Shown here: in pieces, positions 3,246-47,797 of the stretch
Layout: the number at the start of each line of letters is the position of its first letter
Position numbering within the stretch: position 1 is the stretch's first letter
Assembly: GCF_031191185.1 (NCBI RefSeq)
Contig: NZ_CP133464.1
Span: 372,001-436,000, forward strand
Direction of reading: 5' to 3'
From: Prevotella nigrescens
GTDB lineage: Bacteria > Bacteroidota > Bacteroidia > Bacteroidales > Bacteroidaceae
DNA: 64,000 nt
Translations under genes and position numbers: made by a program
The notes under the pieces: generated by a model
Database searches by the model: none
Seen by the model: only the letters and a program-made list of their open reading frames with translations
Told to the model about the DNA's origin: nothing

Positions 3246-4622
3246 TTACTTGCATTCTCCCTTGTCGAAATTGACGTAAGTGATAGGGAAGAGACTTGTT
3301 GGGTCGTCTACTTCCAAGAGGTGATAGACGTTGAATTCGTAAACTTCGCCCATCTTACAGTCTGATGGAGAGAACGGGAAGGCGAGGTTACCTGATGTGG
3401 AATAGCGACCTTCATAGCCGAAGTGGAGCATCGTACTGCGTGCAAAGCTGCAGATAGTGTTGGCTGTTTCCTGACTATCTGCCACGGCTTCGATAATGAT
3501 GAGCAGTTCATCAGAGTGCGATTCCTCTATTCCTTTGAACATAGCCATAACGCCTTTCTTGCCGTAAATCTTGAAATCGAGGAAGAAATCGGTTATGCCG
3601 TACTTCTTGAAGTTATCCTCTACGCGAGCGCGAACAGCCTCTGTGATTTCGTCTATCTTAGAAATCATGATGGGATCCTTAACCGCTGCAGGCGACATAG
3701 TGCGGAAACCTACCCGGCGAACACCCTCGAGCTTAACGTAATATTTGTCGGTTGGTACGAACTTGGAGCCTGAAACACGTACCTTATTGTCGTCTACCTG
3801 TTCGAATTTGCATTCGTGCAGGTTGATGGCACCGCCCGGACCAGGCAATATGTATGGGTTGGTCTTCTCGTAAAGAGTGTGTCCTGCAATGGAAAGAGTA
3901 GTACATTTACGAGCTGACGACAATGGTTCGAGCACGAAATCGTCGTGGTGCAGATAGCCAAACATACAGTCGCTACCACTTCCCGGCAGTGCGCAGATAG
4001 CGGCACACTCTAATATTTTGCCCAAGTGGATAGCCAAACCTTTAGGAAATCCCTCCTTTATTGGAAGGGCTGCGAATACAGATGGGTCGTAAGAACGACC
4101 AGCAATAATAACGTCTGCCCCTTCTTCCAATGCCTTGATGTAAGGTTCTTCGCCCATTTGTGCCACGATGTGAACGGCTTCGTCTATGTCTTTCTCTCCG
4201 ATAGGCTTAGCCGGAGCAAGTGGAGTTACCTTTCCTTTGCGAAGTTCTTCCTTGATAAAGTCTTTCTCAAATTCCGATTCTATTACTGCCATCTTGAAAG
4301 AAAGCCCTTTCTCTTTGGCTATTTCGCGAATGATATCGAGCACAAATTTTACGTGAGGACGTGCCCCGCTACCACCGGCAGTACCTACAATGACAGGTAC
4401 TTTCGCCTCGATGCCCGCAGGAATCATGATTTCCAAGTCGCGTTTTACCGAGTTGCGGTCGGTGAACGACTTGCCTGCGCCAAGATAATAAGGTCCCGGG
4501 TCTGATGAACCAGCGTCTACTGCAATTACATGTGGTTTACGTTTCATTCCTTCTACGAACGATTCCATCGGGAAACCATAGCCCAATATCGCCGTAGTGG
4601 AAAGTATTCTGATTTCTTCCAT
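3246..4622 (-). CDS. AtuA/DUF1446 family protein
   Basis: 458 residues. It belongs by overall pattern to the AtuA/DUF1446 family, named after a gene of acyclic terpene degradation: MEEIRILSTTAILGYGFP at the start, VIAVDAGSSDPGPYYLG near 33-50, GTAGGSGARPH near 80, and IIAGRSYDPSVFAA near 170. The start at 4622 is preceded by a purine-rich AAGGAAAAG; the upstream in-frame extension is basic and unlike the family. AtuA proteins have no firmly known reaction and are often linked to CoA-thioester metabolism. Here it sits between methylaspartate ammonia-lyase and the fumarase/mesaconase genes. No citramalate lyase gene is present in the window, so this pair is the prime candidate for an unrecognised step. 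That role is inference. Confidence 0.82.
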   Translation of the reverse strand: MEEIRILSTTAILGYGFPMESFVEGMKRKPHVIAVDAGSSDPGPYYLGAGKSFTDRNSVKRDLEIMIPAGIEAKVPVIVGTAGGSGARPHVKFVLDIIREIAKEKGLSFKMAVIESEFEKDFIKEELRKGKVTPLAPAKPIGEKDIDEAVHIVAQMGEEPYIKALEEGADVIIAGRSYDPSVFAALPIKEGFPKGLAIHLGKILECAAICALPGSGSDCMFGYLHHDDFVLEPLSSARKCTTLSIAGHTLYEKTNPYILPGPGGAINLHECKFEQVDDNKVRVSGSKFVPTDKYYVKLEGVRRVGFRTMSPAAVKDPIMISKIDEITEAVRARVEDNFKKYGITDFFLDFKIYGKKGVMAMFKGIEESHSDELLIIIEAVADSQETANTICSFARSTMLHFGYEGRYSTSGNLAFPFSPSDCKMGEVYEFNVYHLLEVDDPTSLFPITYVNFDKGECK

Positions 4623-4814
4623 CTTTCTTTTCCTTTTTTTATTGCGTGGTCGAAACCTTTTAATTGCCTGATTGGAAGCAAGGTACAATAACTTTATGAG
4701 CGTTAAAGAGACGTACCATAAAAGGTTTGTTCCAATATTTAGAAGTTTTAATAAATATGACTTTCGCTTCTGAAGAGTGCGCTATCAACCTTTGGAAATG
4801 ATTGAATTGGAGTC

Positions 4815-5047
4815 TGATGTCTATTGTGTCATTTTCTGACTGCTATTGCATCGATTTCTAAAACCCATTGTTTCGCTCTCTAAAACCCACCCTTTTGCGA
4901 TGCAAAAGAGCCTGTTTTGTTCTTCAAAACCCATTGTTTTGATTTCTGATGGCGATAGCATCAATCTCAGACGCAGTTTGTATCAGTTCCTGACAGATAC
5001 GATGTCATATCTTGATGAATATGGCGTCGTGTCTGAAAGGAACAGAC
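4815..5047. repeat. array of 22-bp hairpin units (ten positions)
   Basis: Units of 17 bp recur at 4815, 4837, 4859, 4881, 4903, 4925, 4947, 4969, 4991 and 5013, exactly 22 bp apart. Most have 5-base arms, 7-base loop, 5-base arms, then a 5-base spacer. Arms differ between units but stay complementary, for example CAAAA/TTTTG at 4903 and 4925, TGATG/CATCA at 4947 and TGACA/TGTCA at 4991. Units at 4815, 4881 and 5013 pair only with G-U wobble allowed; 4859 has a mismatch; 4837 and 4969 are poor. An off-register 17-mer GTCTG...CAGAC follows at 5031. The array lies between the MAL stop and the AtuA start. Confidence 0.8.
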
Positions 5048-5103
5048 GCCACATCCTTTTTTCTATCTTGTAATATTGAATTTGCGTATATATTATAATG
5101 TGT

Positions 5104-6345
5104 CTACTCGGCGGTGAGAGCCAAGATGCGGCTCATTTCGTTGAAGACAATCATGTAGCCTTCGTCTACACCCATACCCGGTTTTGCAAGATACTGTACA
5201 GGTTGGGTTGCCATGGCGATGTTTGCACAAACTTCTGCAGAGCGGTTTGTTTCGTTGCAAGTACCACCGAGATAGGCACCCATGCCGTGTTCCTTGCAGT
5301 AAAGTACGGCTTCGATGGTGTTGTTGATGCCTCCGAGGTCGGGCGTCTTTATCTGTGCCATGTGCCCAGCCTTCTTTTCAGTGAACGCTTTGATGTCTTC
5401 CAGTGTGTTGCACCACTCGTCTGCAACGATTTCAGCGTCGATACCGTCGCGGTCCATCGCTGCGCGGATAGCAGCCAGAGCATCGATTTGTGCTTCGCGC
5501 TCGCCCATATCAACTGGTCCTTCTACACGCAAGTGGAACGGTTTTGCTATTTCTGCCACTTCGCCAATGTATTTGGCGATAGCCTCGAAGTCGTTGTTGA
5601 ACACGATGCCGAGTGTACCGTAGACGTCGATATGGAATGTTGGGTTGTAGCATTCGCATGGACGGAGCTCGAGCACGCGGTTGCGGAGCCACTCTATATA
5701 TTCCTTAATCTTTTCGCCTTTCAGTCCAACCTTTGTCTCAACGTGATTGAAAAGTGCGTGGGGAAGCACGTCTGCACACTTCATTATCATCTTGTCTGCA
5801 TTCAGGTAGCGGTCGTCTCCCGATTGAGAGAAGATAGGAATCATCTTCTTGGAAACCTCTGTGCCATATTCATCGGCTACTACTTGTGCCATTAATTTGG
5901 CTTGGCTCTTTGCAACGGCATCGAGACAAGCCTGTGTTACACCATATCTTATGGCGGTGTGATATATCTTTCCTGTAGACGGACTTACTGCCTTGTCTAC
6001 GAGGTCAGCCATTTTGCGGAACGATGTAATTTCTTTTCCTTCGTAAAGTGGTGCTATTTCTTTCTCAATAACTGGGATAAAGTCCTTGGCAAGGAACAGT
6101 GGGTCGCGCCCACCGGCACCTGAATACTGTACGGCAGCACAGTCTCCGAATGCGATGGCACCGTTCTCAAGGATAAACATAACGCTGATAGACTCGCCGG
6201 CTTGTCTTACTTGCTTGAAACCGGGTGTCATTGGAGTCCCAATATAGAAGGCACCGTCATTCTTTGCACCAGCTTTGATGGCTTTCTGGTCATCGAAAAA
6301 GAATCCCGTTTTGCCCGGAGCGCATACAACTTTCTTGATTTTCAT
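5104..6345 (-). CDS. mal: methylaspartate ammonia-lyase
   Basis: 413 residues, the usual length for 3-methylaspartate ammonia-lyase of the enolase superfamily, which removes ammonia from L-threo-3-methylaspartate to give mesaconate. Visible hallmarks are FNHVETKVGLKGEK near 200 (catalytic His), the three metal-ligand segments HIDVYG, VEGPVD and ADEWCN, and QIKTPDLGG near 330, which holds the catalytic Lys. The first 160 residues match the capping domain. It is the second enzyme of the methylaspartate route and follows glmE by 128 bases, a gap with a strong RNA stem-loop. A 480-base gap with a 22-bp hairpin array separates it from the AtuA gene. Confidence 0.97.
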   Translation of the reverse strand: MKIKKVVCAPGKTGFFFDDQKAIKAGAKNDGAFYIGTPMTPGFKQVRQAGESISVMFILENGAIAFGDCAAVQYSGAGGRDPLFLAKDFIPVIEKEIAPLYEGKEITSFRKMADLVDKAVSPSTGKIYHTAIRYGVTQACLDAVAKSQAKLMAQVVADEYGTEVSKKMIPIFSQSGDDRYLNADKMIMKCADVLPHALFNHVETKVGLKGEKIKEYIEWLRNRVLELRPCECYNPTFHIDVYGTLGIVFNNDFEAIAKYIGEVAEIAKPFHLRVEGPVDMGEREAQIDALAAIRAAMDRDGIDAEIVADEWCNTLEDIKAFTEKKAGHMAQIKTPDLGGINNTIEAVLYCKEHGMGAYLGGTCNETNRSAEVCANIAMATQPVQYLAKPGMGVDEGYMIVFNEMSRILALTAE

Positions 6346-9993: not shown

Positions 9994-10076
9994 CGAAACA
10001 GGGCTTTTTACAAGCTGAAACAGGCTCTTTTGGTGTGTAAAAGAGCCTGTTTTGAAACGTAAAATACGGAGGTTTA
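9994..10076. repeat. array of 22-bp hairpin units
   Basis: Units start at 9994, 10016, 10038 and 10060, exactly 22 bp apart, between tilS and the glmS promoter. The units at 10016 and 10038 carry the core AGGCTC in opposite orientations, each flanked by A-rich and T-rich arms; the outer two are more diverged. Confidence 0.85.
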
Positions 10077-16801: not shown

Positions 16802-16862
16802 TAAAAGAGCCTGTTTGACCTTCCCAAACAGGCTCTTTTGCAACACAAAATGCACTCTTTTT
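16802..16862. repeat. array of 22-bp hairpin units
   Basis: Units start at 16802, 16824 and 16846, spaced exactly 22 bp. The first two (GAGCCTG core, then CAGGCTC core) are near mirror images and together also form one long hairpin. It lies about 150 bases past the LolA-like gene and could serve as a 3' end element. Confidence 0.82.
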
Positions 16863-22422: not shown

Positions 22423-22510
22423 GTTTTAGATATCAGTCACGTTCGTTTTAGATATCAGTCACGCACGTTTTAGATATCAGTAATGATAGTTTTAGATATC
22501 TAAAACTTTT
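22423..22510. repeat. four tandem 22-bp repeats with GATATC core
   Basis: Copies start at 22423, 22445, 22467 and 22489, exactly 22 bp apart, each beginning GTTTTAGATATC. The second half is nearly the same in the first three (AGTCAC or AGTAAT plus four variable bases). In the last copy GTTTTAGATATCTAAAAC is a perfect 18-base palindrome. The period equals that of the hairpin-unit arrays but the sequence differs. Confidence 0.9.
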
Positions 22511-25711: not shown

Positions 25712-25794
25712 CGGAACAGGCTCTTTTAGCGTGCAAAACAGTGGGTTTTGCACTGTAAAACAGGCTCTTTTGCCCCACAAAACAGTGGGGTTTG
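25712..25794. repeat. array of 22-bp hairpin units
   Basis: Four 17-bp units at 25712, 25734, 25756 and 25778, exactly 22 bp apart. Cores alternate: CAGGCTC, CAGTGGG, CAGGCTC, CAGTGGG, with A-rich left arms and T-rich right arms. The array lies between the convergent rubredoxin and YihY genes. Confidence 0.88.
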
Positions 25795-27426: not shown

Positions 27427-27516
27427 TCAGCGGTTCTTTTTGTCTTGATACATAAAGTAAAGACGTCCAATTACTGCGCCCACAAAGAGCAAAATCGCTA
27501 CTGCTAATGTTCCCAT
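27427..27516 (-). CDS. 29-residue membrane micro-protein (copy A)
   Basis: An ORF of 29 codons: MGTLAVAILLFVGAVIG, then RLYFMYQDKKNR. One hydrophobic helix of about 17-20 residues is followed by a basic tail, so it is probably a single-pass inner-membrane protein with the tail in the cytoplasm. It is a tandem duplicate of the 35-residue gene next to it: leader (AGGAGAATAGTATGGGA) and last 12 residues (LYFMYQDKKNR region) are almost the same, while the helix has diverged. AGGAG lies 7 bases before the ATG. I recognise no function. Duplication with conserved ends and a good ribosome site makes it credible as a gene. Confidence 0.62.
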   Translation of the reverse strand: MGTLAVAILLFVGAVIGRLYFMYQDKKNR

Positions 27517-27539
27517 ACTATTCTCCTAACTTCTAATTA

Positions 27540-27647
27540 CTATCCTTTTCCGTTAGATTTACGGTTCTTTTTGTCTTGATACATAAAGTAAAGACCTCCA
27601 ATTGTCGCTACCAGCGAAACAAAAATCGATGCTACTATTGCTCCCAT
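27540..27647 (-). CDS. 35-residue membrane micro-protein (copy B)
   Basis: 35 codons: MGAIVASIFVSLVATIGG, then LYFMYQDKKNRKSNGKG. It has one hydrophobic helix and a strongly basic tail. The ATG lies 1 base after the stop of the frameshifted gene at 27649, whose last codons contain its ribosome site (AAAGGAG), so translation is coupled. Copy A follows after 23 bases. The size and charge pattern resemble small regulatory subunits of membrane complexes and also type I toxins. No antisense RNA is evident, and I assign no function. Confidence 0.62.
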   Translation of the reverse strand: MGAIVASIFVSLVATIGGLYFMYQDKKNRKSNGKG

Positions 27648-27648
27648 A

Positions 27649-27839
27649 CTATTCTCCTTTCTTTTGATTACTATCCTTTTCTATTAAATAGAGCCCCCAA
27701 CATAAGGTTAATGCTGCACCCAATACAACGCAAACAAGAACCCATAGGCGATCCATACTGCCAAAAGCTGTCGATAATAGCAAAGCGTTACCATATATTT
27801 TGCTATATCCATCAGCCATTTTCCTAGCTCTTTTTTCAT
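27649..27839 (-). pseudogene. small membrane-protein gene with a one-base frameshift
   Basis: From the ATG at 27839 the minus strand reads MKKELGKWLMDIAKYMVT, a start typical of a small Bacteroidota membrane-protein family (I think DUF6722), then runs out of frame. In the neighbouring frame, also open from an ATG at 27819, the missing part follows: ALLLSTAFGSMDRLWVLVC, a second hydrophobic segment and LYLIEKDSNQKKGE. Inserting one base after the Thr codon would restore a protein of about 63 residues with two membrane segments. This is a true frameshift, a programmed shift, or a sequence error. The alternative is that the 56-residue frame from 27819 (after AGGA) is the real product. Possible -7 TATATTTG at 27844-27851. 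Confidence 0.6.
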
Positions 27840-31151: not shown

Positions 31152-31257
31152 AAGGCAATTGTGCCTTAGTATTTCAATACCCCTTGTTTCGTTGTGTAAA
31201 AGAGCCTGTTTTACACGGCAAAAGAGCCTGTTTTGGAACGCAAGACAGGCTCTTTTG
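31152..31257. repeat. array of 22-bp hairpin units
   Basis: Clear units at 31197, 31219 and 31241 (exactly 22 bp apart; two with GAGCCTG, one with CAGGCTC core). In the same register a weaker unit lies at 31175, and a palindrome with other arms (AAGGC/GCCTT) is at 31152-31167. The array separates the convergent adenosyltransferase and lipoate genes. Confidence 0.82.
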
Positions 31258-34796: not shown

Positions 34797-34879
34797 CAAA
34801 AACCATTGTTTCGCCTCATAAAAACGCCTGTTTTGCATGGTAAAACAGGCTCTTTCGTCTTGCAAAACAATATCTTTTG
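34797..34879. repeat. array of 22-bp hairpin units
   Basis: Four 17-bp units at 34797, 34819, 34841 and 34863, exactly 22 bp apart, all with AAAA-type left arm and TTTT/TTTC right arm. The 7-base loops differ (ACCATTG, ACGCCTG, CAGGCTC, CAATATC). Confidence 0.86.
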
Positions 34880-47714: not shown

Positions 47715-47797
47715 CAAAACCTATTGTTTTACACAACAAAAGAGCCTGTTTTGCCACGCAAAACAGGCTCTTTTGCAATGTAAAGACGCACACATTG
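47715..47797. repeat. array of 22-bp hairpin units
   Basis: Units at 47715, 47737, 47759 and 47781, exactly 22 bp apart. The second (GAGCCTG core) and third (CAGGCTC core) are exact mirror images with CAAAA/TTTTG arms; the first has core CCTATTG; the fourth is degenerate. The array starts 20 bases after pheS, ahead of convergent walJ. Confidence 0.9.

Follow-up and report, generated by a model that had tools for sequence, protein, structure and literature searches.

The described repeat closest in kind to the locus reported here is PINSR, a 188-bp intergenic repeat of Prevotella intermedia that numbers 177 copies in one strain and 184 in another, with about three-quarters of its sites common to both (PMC4755523). 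In the available portions of that description, no function is ascribed to PINSR and PCR detected none outside one clade. Our literature search on PINSR in Prevotella found nothing beyond this paper, and the 22-bp framework described below found no mention in the literature searched, most subscription journals lying outside it. We analyzed a window of 64,000 nucleotides from Prevotella nigrescens (contig NZ_CP133464.1, positions 372,001 to 436,000), which contains an array of ten 22-bp units. Among the copies of a repeat dispersed between genes in some Prevotella genomes, this array is unusually long (Table 1).

A preliminary description of the window had reported ten consecutive units spaced 22 bp apart, with arms that mostly pair, partly through G-U, in the gap between the genes for methylaspartate ammonia-lyase (MAL) and an AtuA-family protein. 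All of this was borne out, including the gap, where both flanking genes carry the expected Pfam domains. The 17-base units start at 4815, 4837 and so on to 5013 at a spacing of exactly 22 bp, and 45 of their 50 arm positions are pairable with G-U, or 37 by Watson-Crick pairing only. Watson-Crick pairs per unit number, in order, 3, 2, 3, 4, 5, 5, 5, 2, 5 and 3 out of 5; in agreement with the earlier claim, the fit is poor in units 4837 and 4969, and 4859 contains a single mismatch. The ten-unit pairing score is the highest of all starts in the 64 kb. None of 2000 dinucleotide shuffles of 4701-5104 matched the array (best score 36, or 29 Watson-Crick only), and among periods of 18-30 every period other than 22 scored at most 33, compared with 45 at 22. 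The nearest named ammonia-lyase genes are those of Prevotella aurantiaca (96%) and P. falsenii (95%). The AtuA-family gene was listed as an ORF at 3246-4688, and comparison with relatives places its start more likely at 4622.

Table 1. Array, flanking genes and further family arrays, in positions of the window.
Feature	Position	Strand	Basis or remark
Ten-unit array, period 22 bp	4813..5032		45/50 arm positions pairable, 0/2000 shuffles
Two outer units, GAYG/YRTC-like arms	4813..4856		Arm-type analysis; no match among focal-genome matches listed, E <= 10
Four central units, dispersed family AAAA-N7-TTTT	4857..4944		Cores CCCATTG, CCCACCC, GAGCCTG, CCCATTG
Four outer units, GAYG/YRTC-like arms	4945..5032		Arm-type analysis; no match among focal-genome matches listed
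Hairpin then T6, overlapping last unit	5013..5062	+	Sequence; DNA fold of 5005-5066
Methylaspartate ammonia-lyase gene	5104..6345	-	PF05034 (MAAL_N), PF07476 (MAAL_C)
AtuA-family gene	3246..4622	-	PF07287 (AtuA); start from comparison with relatives
Family array	9995..10075		G084 array beside same aligned gene end
Family array, 3 units	16803..16861		Register/tract scan
Family array, 4 units	25713..25793		Register/tract scan
Family array, 4 units	31176..31256		Register/tract scan
Family array, 4 units	34798..34878		Register/tract scan
Family array, 3 units	47716..47774		G084 array beside same aligned gene end

The central units of the array belong to a family with the framework AAAA-N7-TTTT-N7, which places one A- or T-tract every 11 bp. 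In the focal genome the 15-mer unit AAAAGAGCCTGTTTT has 48 copies (reversed control, 0), the two-unit framework AAAA-N7-TTTT-N7-AAAA-N7-TTTT has 129 exact copies and the three-unit framework has 44. The reversed two-unit form matches 109 times, but since longer arrays include both forms it does not serve as an independent control. Arrays were assigned to the family on at least three units in register with a tract score of at least 6 of 8; the focal array scores 7, 8, 8 and 8. When 4800-5060 was used as the query in a DNA search of its own genome, which scored 40 of 106 first-look candidates at E <= 10, the matches listed included 65 non-self ones, all within 4854-4943, and the six outer units had no match elsewhere among them. 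In 262 kb of focal-genome sequence, the listed six-unit runs elsewhere with at least 25 of 30 arm positions paired each hold at least three A4/T4 units. The window also contains a second 22-bp tandem at 22423-22500, with 3.5 copies of GTTTTAGATATCAGTCACGATC, which is not of the A4-N7-T4 type, ends in a palindrome and lies upstream of a 795-aa ORF, and a 131-bp unit in tandem duplication at 27431-27681 (1.9 copies).

The family is abundant in only part of the genus. Among 120 genus genomes drawn evenly from a larger group, the focal one included, 75 hold at least one two-unit match, many of them a handful for which chance could account, and a minority are rich: the ten richest besides the focal genome hold 481, 360, 126, 120, 113, 94, 56, 35, 34 and 28. 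A draw of 395 genomes from the phylum, which contained one other genome of the genus (G513), yielded the strict three-unit pattern in the focal genome only. Searches of viral contigs returned 16 stretches; by eye, three have cores of the type found in the related genome G084, one has another vocabulary, and the remainder look like simple or A/T-rich repeats.

Genome G084 has 203 places with an anchor core. Fifty-eight distinct copies represent, for the most part, a single element some 190 bp long, which has four 22-bp units and position-typical linkers and in which cores 2 and 3 can exchange places. From length class, copy number and lineage, rather than from published consensus letters, we infer that this element is PINSR, which would suggest an inner structure for the published repeat. 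The ends of the G084 consensus are, by eye, imperfect inverted repeats (TGTAAAGATAATTC and GAAAAATATTTACA, 11/14), in contrast with PINSR, described in the available text as lacking terminal inverted repeats (PMC4755523). In one copy (L116), units 1-3 are apparently inverted in place with complementary cores flanking them, and from this copy short inverted repeats may flip segments. A copy of the G084 form is present in the focal genome (L055). Neither G084-form end (TGTAAA.AT / AT.TTTACA) was found within 130 bp of the focal array with one mismatch allowed.

The arrays that were classified are intergenic. When genes were called with a simple codon-scored procedure made here, none of 82 arrays, including 5 at locus edges, fell inside a gene. 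By type of gap, the focal-genome arrays are 21 tandem, 14 convergent and 6 divergent, with 2 at locus edges; those of G084 are 16 tandem, 12 convergent and 2 divergent, and those of a third genome, G010, are 3 convergent, 3 divergent and 3 edge. With the focal genome and G084 pooled, arrays are held by 27 of 35 convergent gaps and 8 of 25 divergent gaps (p = 0.0006), rates that are biased in absolute terms because the loci were chosen for holding arrays. The bias towards 3' ends has p = 0.05 in the focal genome alone and p = 0.006 in G084 alone; G010, outside the pooling, has few arrays and no such bias (3/3 convergent and 3/3 divergent gaps). An earlier context count against plain ORFs placed 15 of 47 focal arrays in ORFs, mostly short, and one in a divergent gap. 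It was superseded by the codon-scored calls, which, with none in genes and 6 of 41 classified arrays divergent, make the 3'-end bias weaker.

The preliminary description had taken the changing but complementary arms as paired change that pointed to selection on structure. The arms fall into two types, A4/T4 in four units and GAYG/YRTC-like in six, and it is the mixing of these types that makes covariation significant over all ten units (p = 0.003 when whole right arms are permuted). Permuted within the two types, the right arms give p = 0.69, and column-wise permutation of the six non-A4 units gives a mean of 26.0 pairing positions out of 30, compared with 26 observed (p = 0.72). The paired change therefore amounts to one switch of arm type; arm covariation was rejected, and selection on structure lost its support. 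In the 44 other focal-genome arrays (164 units), inner arm pairs are A-T in 581 of 656. One-sided changes affect 72 pairs (25 of them to G-U) and two-sided changes 3, compared with 2.3 expected by independence; one of the three is Watson-Crick. Pairing at register positions beside these arrays is not above the off-register background. RNAalifold scored the 58 G084 copies at -5.1 kcal/mol, the covariation term being -0.1 kcal/mol, and the strongest column associations among these copies trace to the exchange of core 2 with core 3. No comparison within a genome, whether of the focal array, the 44 other arrays or the G084 copies, supported the compensatory arm changes by which a structured RNA is recognized. 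Pairing arms in tandem units need not mean selected hairpins, the inference of RNA hairpins from these arms is not supported, and for the focal array a DNA feature is a likelier explanation than a series of RNA hairpins.

These results bear on the possibility that a transcribed RNA structure, either the row of units or one long inter-unit hairpin, acts as a MAL-AtuA terminator, attenuator or stabilizer, which we consider unlikely. In its favor, folding energy is low on both strands of 4800-5075 (-78.9 and -85.0 kcal/mol as RNA, z -5.5 and -5.6), a stretch that takes in a separate hairpin at 5013-5053; we read this good fold as near-palindromic units pairing mutually, plus that hairpin over the last unit. 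Folded singly as DNA, eight units (all except 4837 and 4969) gave 0 to -4.8 kcal/mol, three being without structure. Also in its favor, a terminator-like match lies at 4892-4908, one of 2 in 4600-5200 compared with 0.3 in shuffles, and convergent gaps hold more arrays than divergent ones. Both-side changes in 6 of 18 G084 consensus pairs could also be taken for structure, but they are mainly whole-core swaps, three of the six pairs break in 13 of 58 copies, and the last base of core 1 pairs with the first base of its partner in 18 of 44 copies, about 20 being expected. Adjacent inverted units form 15-bp stems followed by T4 in some copies; against this, same-core neighbors in the focal genome are inverted in 24 cases and direct in 15 (merged recount, p = 0.10), with no inverted bias in G010 or in a further genome, G012. 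In G084 inverted neighbors prevail (5 to 0, and 18 to 2 in a larger set), but these copies share one ancestor, and a preference for inverted neighbors was dropped. An Rfam scan of the window at the gathering threshold returned two tRNAs only, with no known family at the array. The hairpin with six T at 5013-5062 is a plus-strand feature, antisense to the operon; 5005-5066 folded as DNA gave -9.6 kcal/mol (z -2.7), and a consensus terminator scan did not flag it.

The preliminary description had offered DNA sites on one face of the helix as its other option, and this was the better half of the claim: the A-tracts recur every 11 bp, and the bend itself is a model prediction. Bends were computed with a wedge model and checked on repeats known to be curved or straight. 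Phased A-tracts are predicted to bend the focal array by 107 degrees over 66 bp, compared with 52 +- 11 in shuffles (0/100 as high). For the five other window arrays with computed bends the prediction is 83-105 degrees, matched by 0, 0, 0, 3 and 0 of 100 shuffles, the three belonging to the array at 34798. Of 95 distinct arrays in four genomes, 90 have a bend z above 1.64 (focal 41/45, G084 28/28, G010 10/10, G012 11/12), an excess that in part reflects merely having A-tracts, since dinucleotide shuffles break A-runs. Linkers lengthened by 3 or more, or shortened by 4 or more, lower the mean predicted bend from 83-92 to 28-43 degrees. The model optimum is a spacing of 20-21 bp, so that 22 is near, not at, the optimum.

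The N7 cores form small genome-specific vocabularies, used in both orientations, in the focal genome, G084, G010, G012 and G017. CAGGCTC and CAATGGG are the commonest in the focal genome, CCTACGC, CAATAGG, CAGCCGC and GAGCCGC in G084, GATAACC and GATGACC in G010, and GCAGCCC and GCATAGC in G012; those of G017 are mostly the same as in G084. Core counts and first bend counts for the focal genome used 47 entries, including three shifted readings of one array, which merge to 45 arrays.

Some gaps hold arrays in two species, and the cores there mostly differ. The gap before a gene that, read by eye, we take to encode S-adenosylmethionine synthetase holds arrays in the focal genome and G084 and aligns on both sides; 100-column blocks are 81-97% identical outside the element, compared with 64 and 62% at it. 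The cores there are CCTGTTG/GAGCCTG/CAGGCTC/CAGGCAC in the focal genome and CCTATTG/GCGGCTG/GCGTAGG/CAGCCGC in G084. The window arrays at 9995 and 47716 each have a G084 array next to the corresponding aligned gene end, the match being one-sided; cores differ at 9995, and at 47716 both genomes have CCTATTG as first core and differ in the rest. To judge from these few sites, core replacement looks like concerted evolution, and an incomplete one. Concerted replacement of many dispersed short repeats would be unusual for bacteria.

Genome-specific vocabularies and mostly different cores at shared gaps are also what would be seen if the units were dyad sites bound by a dimeric protein evolving together with the cores, making the array an operator; the inverted half-words and the 22-bp spacing fit as well. 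The two half-words of a unit are, however, mostly unequal, and one core has stayed the same in both genomes at 47716, and we think an operator array improbable. Equal half-words number 4 in 157 focal-genome units (21.0 expected) and 0 in 267 units of G084 (62.8 expected), but this apparent avoidance disappears when each distinct core is counted once (focal 2/71, 3.1 expected) and was discarded. A bolder version, which we hold to be very unlikely, would have genus-wide bent, phased elements with a fixed framework, whose species half-words are rewritten because they are read by a fast-evolving DNA-binding protein, like a chromosome-address code; the focal array would then be a place where a second arm alphabet is starting to replace the first.

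The MAL-AtuA gap measures 475 bp between aligned blocks in the focal genome and 35 in G084, and no array was found there in 14 relative loci (nine named and five unnamed, some of the same species; in one, L156, the start of the far gene could not be located). Such absence would be expected of a selfish or neutral repeat, mobile or spread by recombination, that has no function for the cell and whose bend and pairing simply follow from its sequence. We regard this as plausible and a little short of probable. The smaller contig, of 568 kb, is enriched in the 15-mer AAAAGAGCCTGTTTT (it makes up 21% of the bases of two contigs and has 30 of the 48 copies, copies within one array not being independent), and the imperfectly inverted ends of the G084 copies point the same way. 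Against it, phasing is kept in four genomes despite different cores, most PINSR sites are reported to be common to two strains (PMC4755523), and no Y1 transposase was found in the focal genome, G084 or G017. The RAYT domain PF01797 was found in G010, G006, G053 and some genomes with few or no arrays, and was not found in the focal genome, G084, G017, G039, G078 or G012; mobilization by RAYT was rejected. The spacer itself holds other repeats in relatives. In P. falsenii and P. aurantiaca it contains, by eye, short degenerate copies resembling the MAL 3' end, and so the gap gains repeats independently. That of Hoylesella marshii contains GGTCATGAGACCTAA ... TTAGGTCTCATGACC, an inverted repeat that resembles a small transposable element.

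On balance, we find it somewhat probable that the focal array is a locally lengthened, diverged copy of a curved intergenic repeat whose action, if it has any, is that of bent double-stranded DNA. The probabilities given to this reading and its rivals overlap and do not sum to one. Any action of the curved repeat would take place at gene ends, where it would keep transcription units apart as a site for a nucleoid protein or for supercoiling. Its copies would be homogenized through recombination among themselves, and tandem duplication may have multiplied the unit at the MAL-AtuA gap. The paired arms would then follow incidentally from the unit's inverted symmetry and not from selection for hairpins.

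Several described systems resemble this family in part. REP/BIME elements, the subject of PMC2817692, likewise consist of many short intergenic units in alternating orientation, but the focal family has A-tract arms and variable cores, and the focal genome, G084 and G017 lack a RAYT-type Y1 transposase. BrickBuilt, a minisatellite and MITE of Porphyromonas gingivalis, is likewise a dispersed intergenic array with about two helical turns per unit and predicted stem-loops; by its description, as far as available, it has 23-nt direct repeats, a leader, a tail and IS5-like ends, whereas the focal array has a period of 22 (PMC4596501). PINSR shares with the focal family its intergenic, multi-copy and non-coding nature. 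The A4-N7-T4 22-bp units are confined to the central four of the focal array, and those of PINSR are deduced from G084; the focal array differs in having ten units, six with the other arm type, and no G084-form ends within 130 bp. Finally, PINSR is reported from one clade in the available text (PMC4755523), whereas further genomes of the genus carry the A4-N7-T4 framework with other cores, which suggests PINSR to be a single dialect of a framework that extends more widely in the genus.
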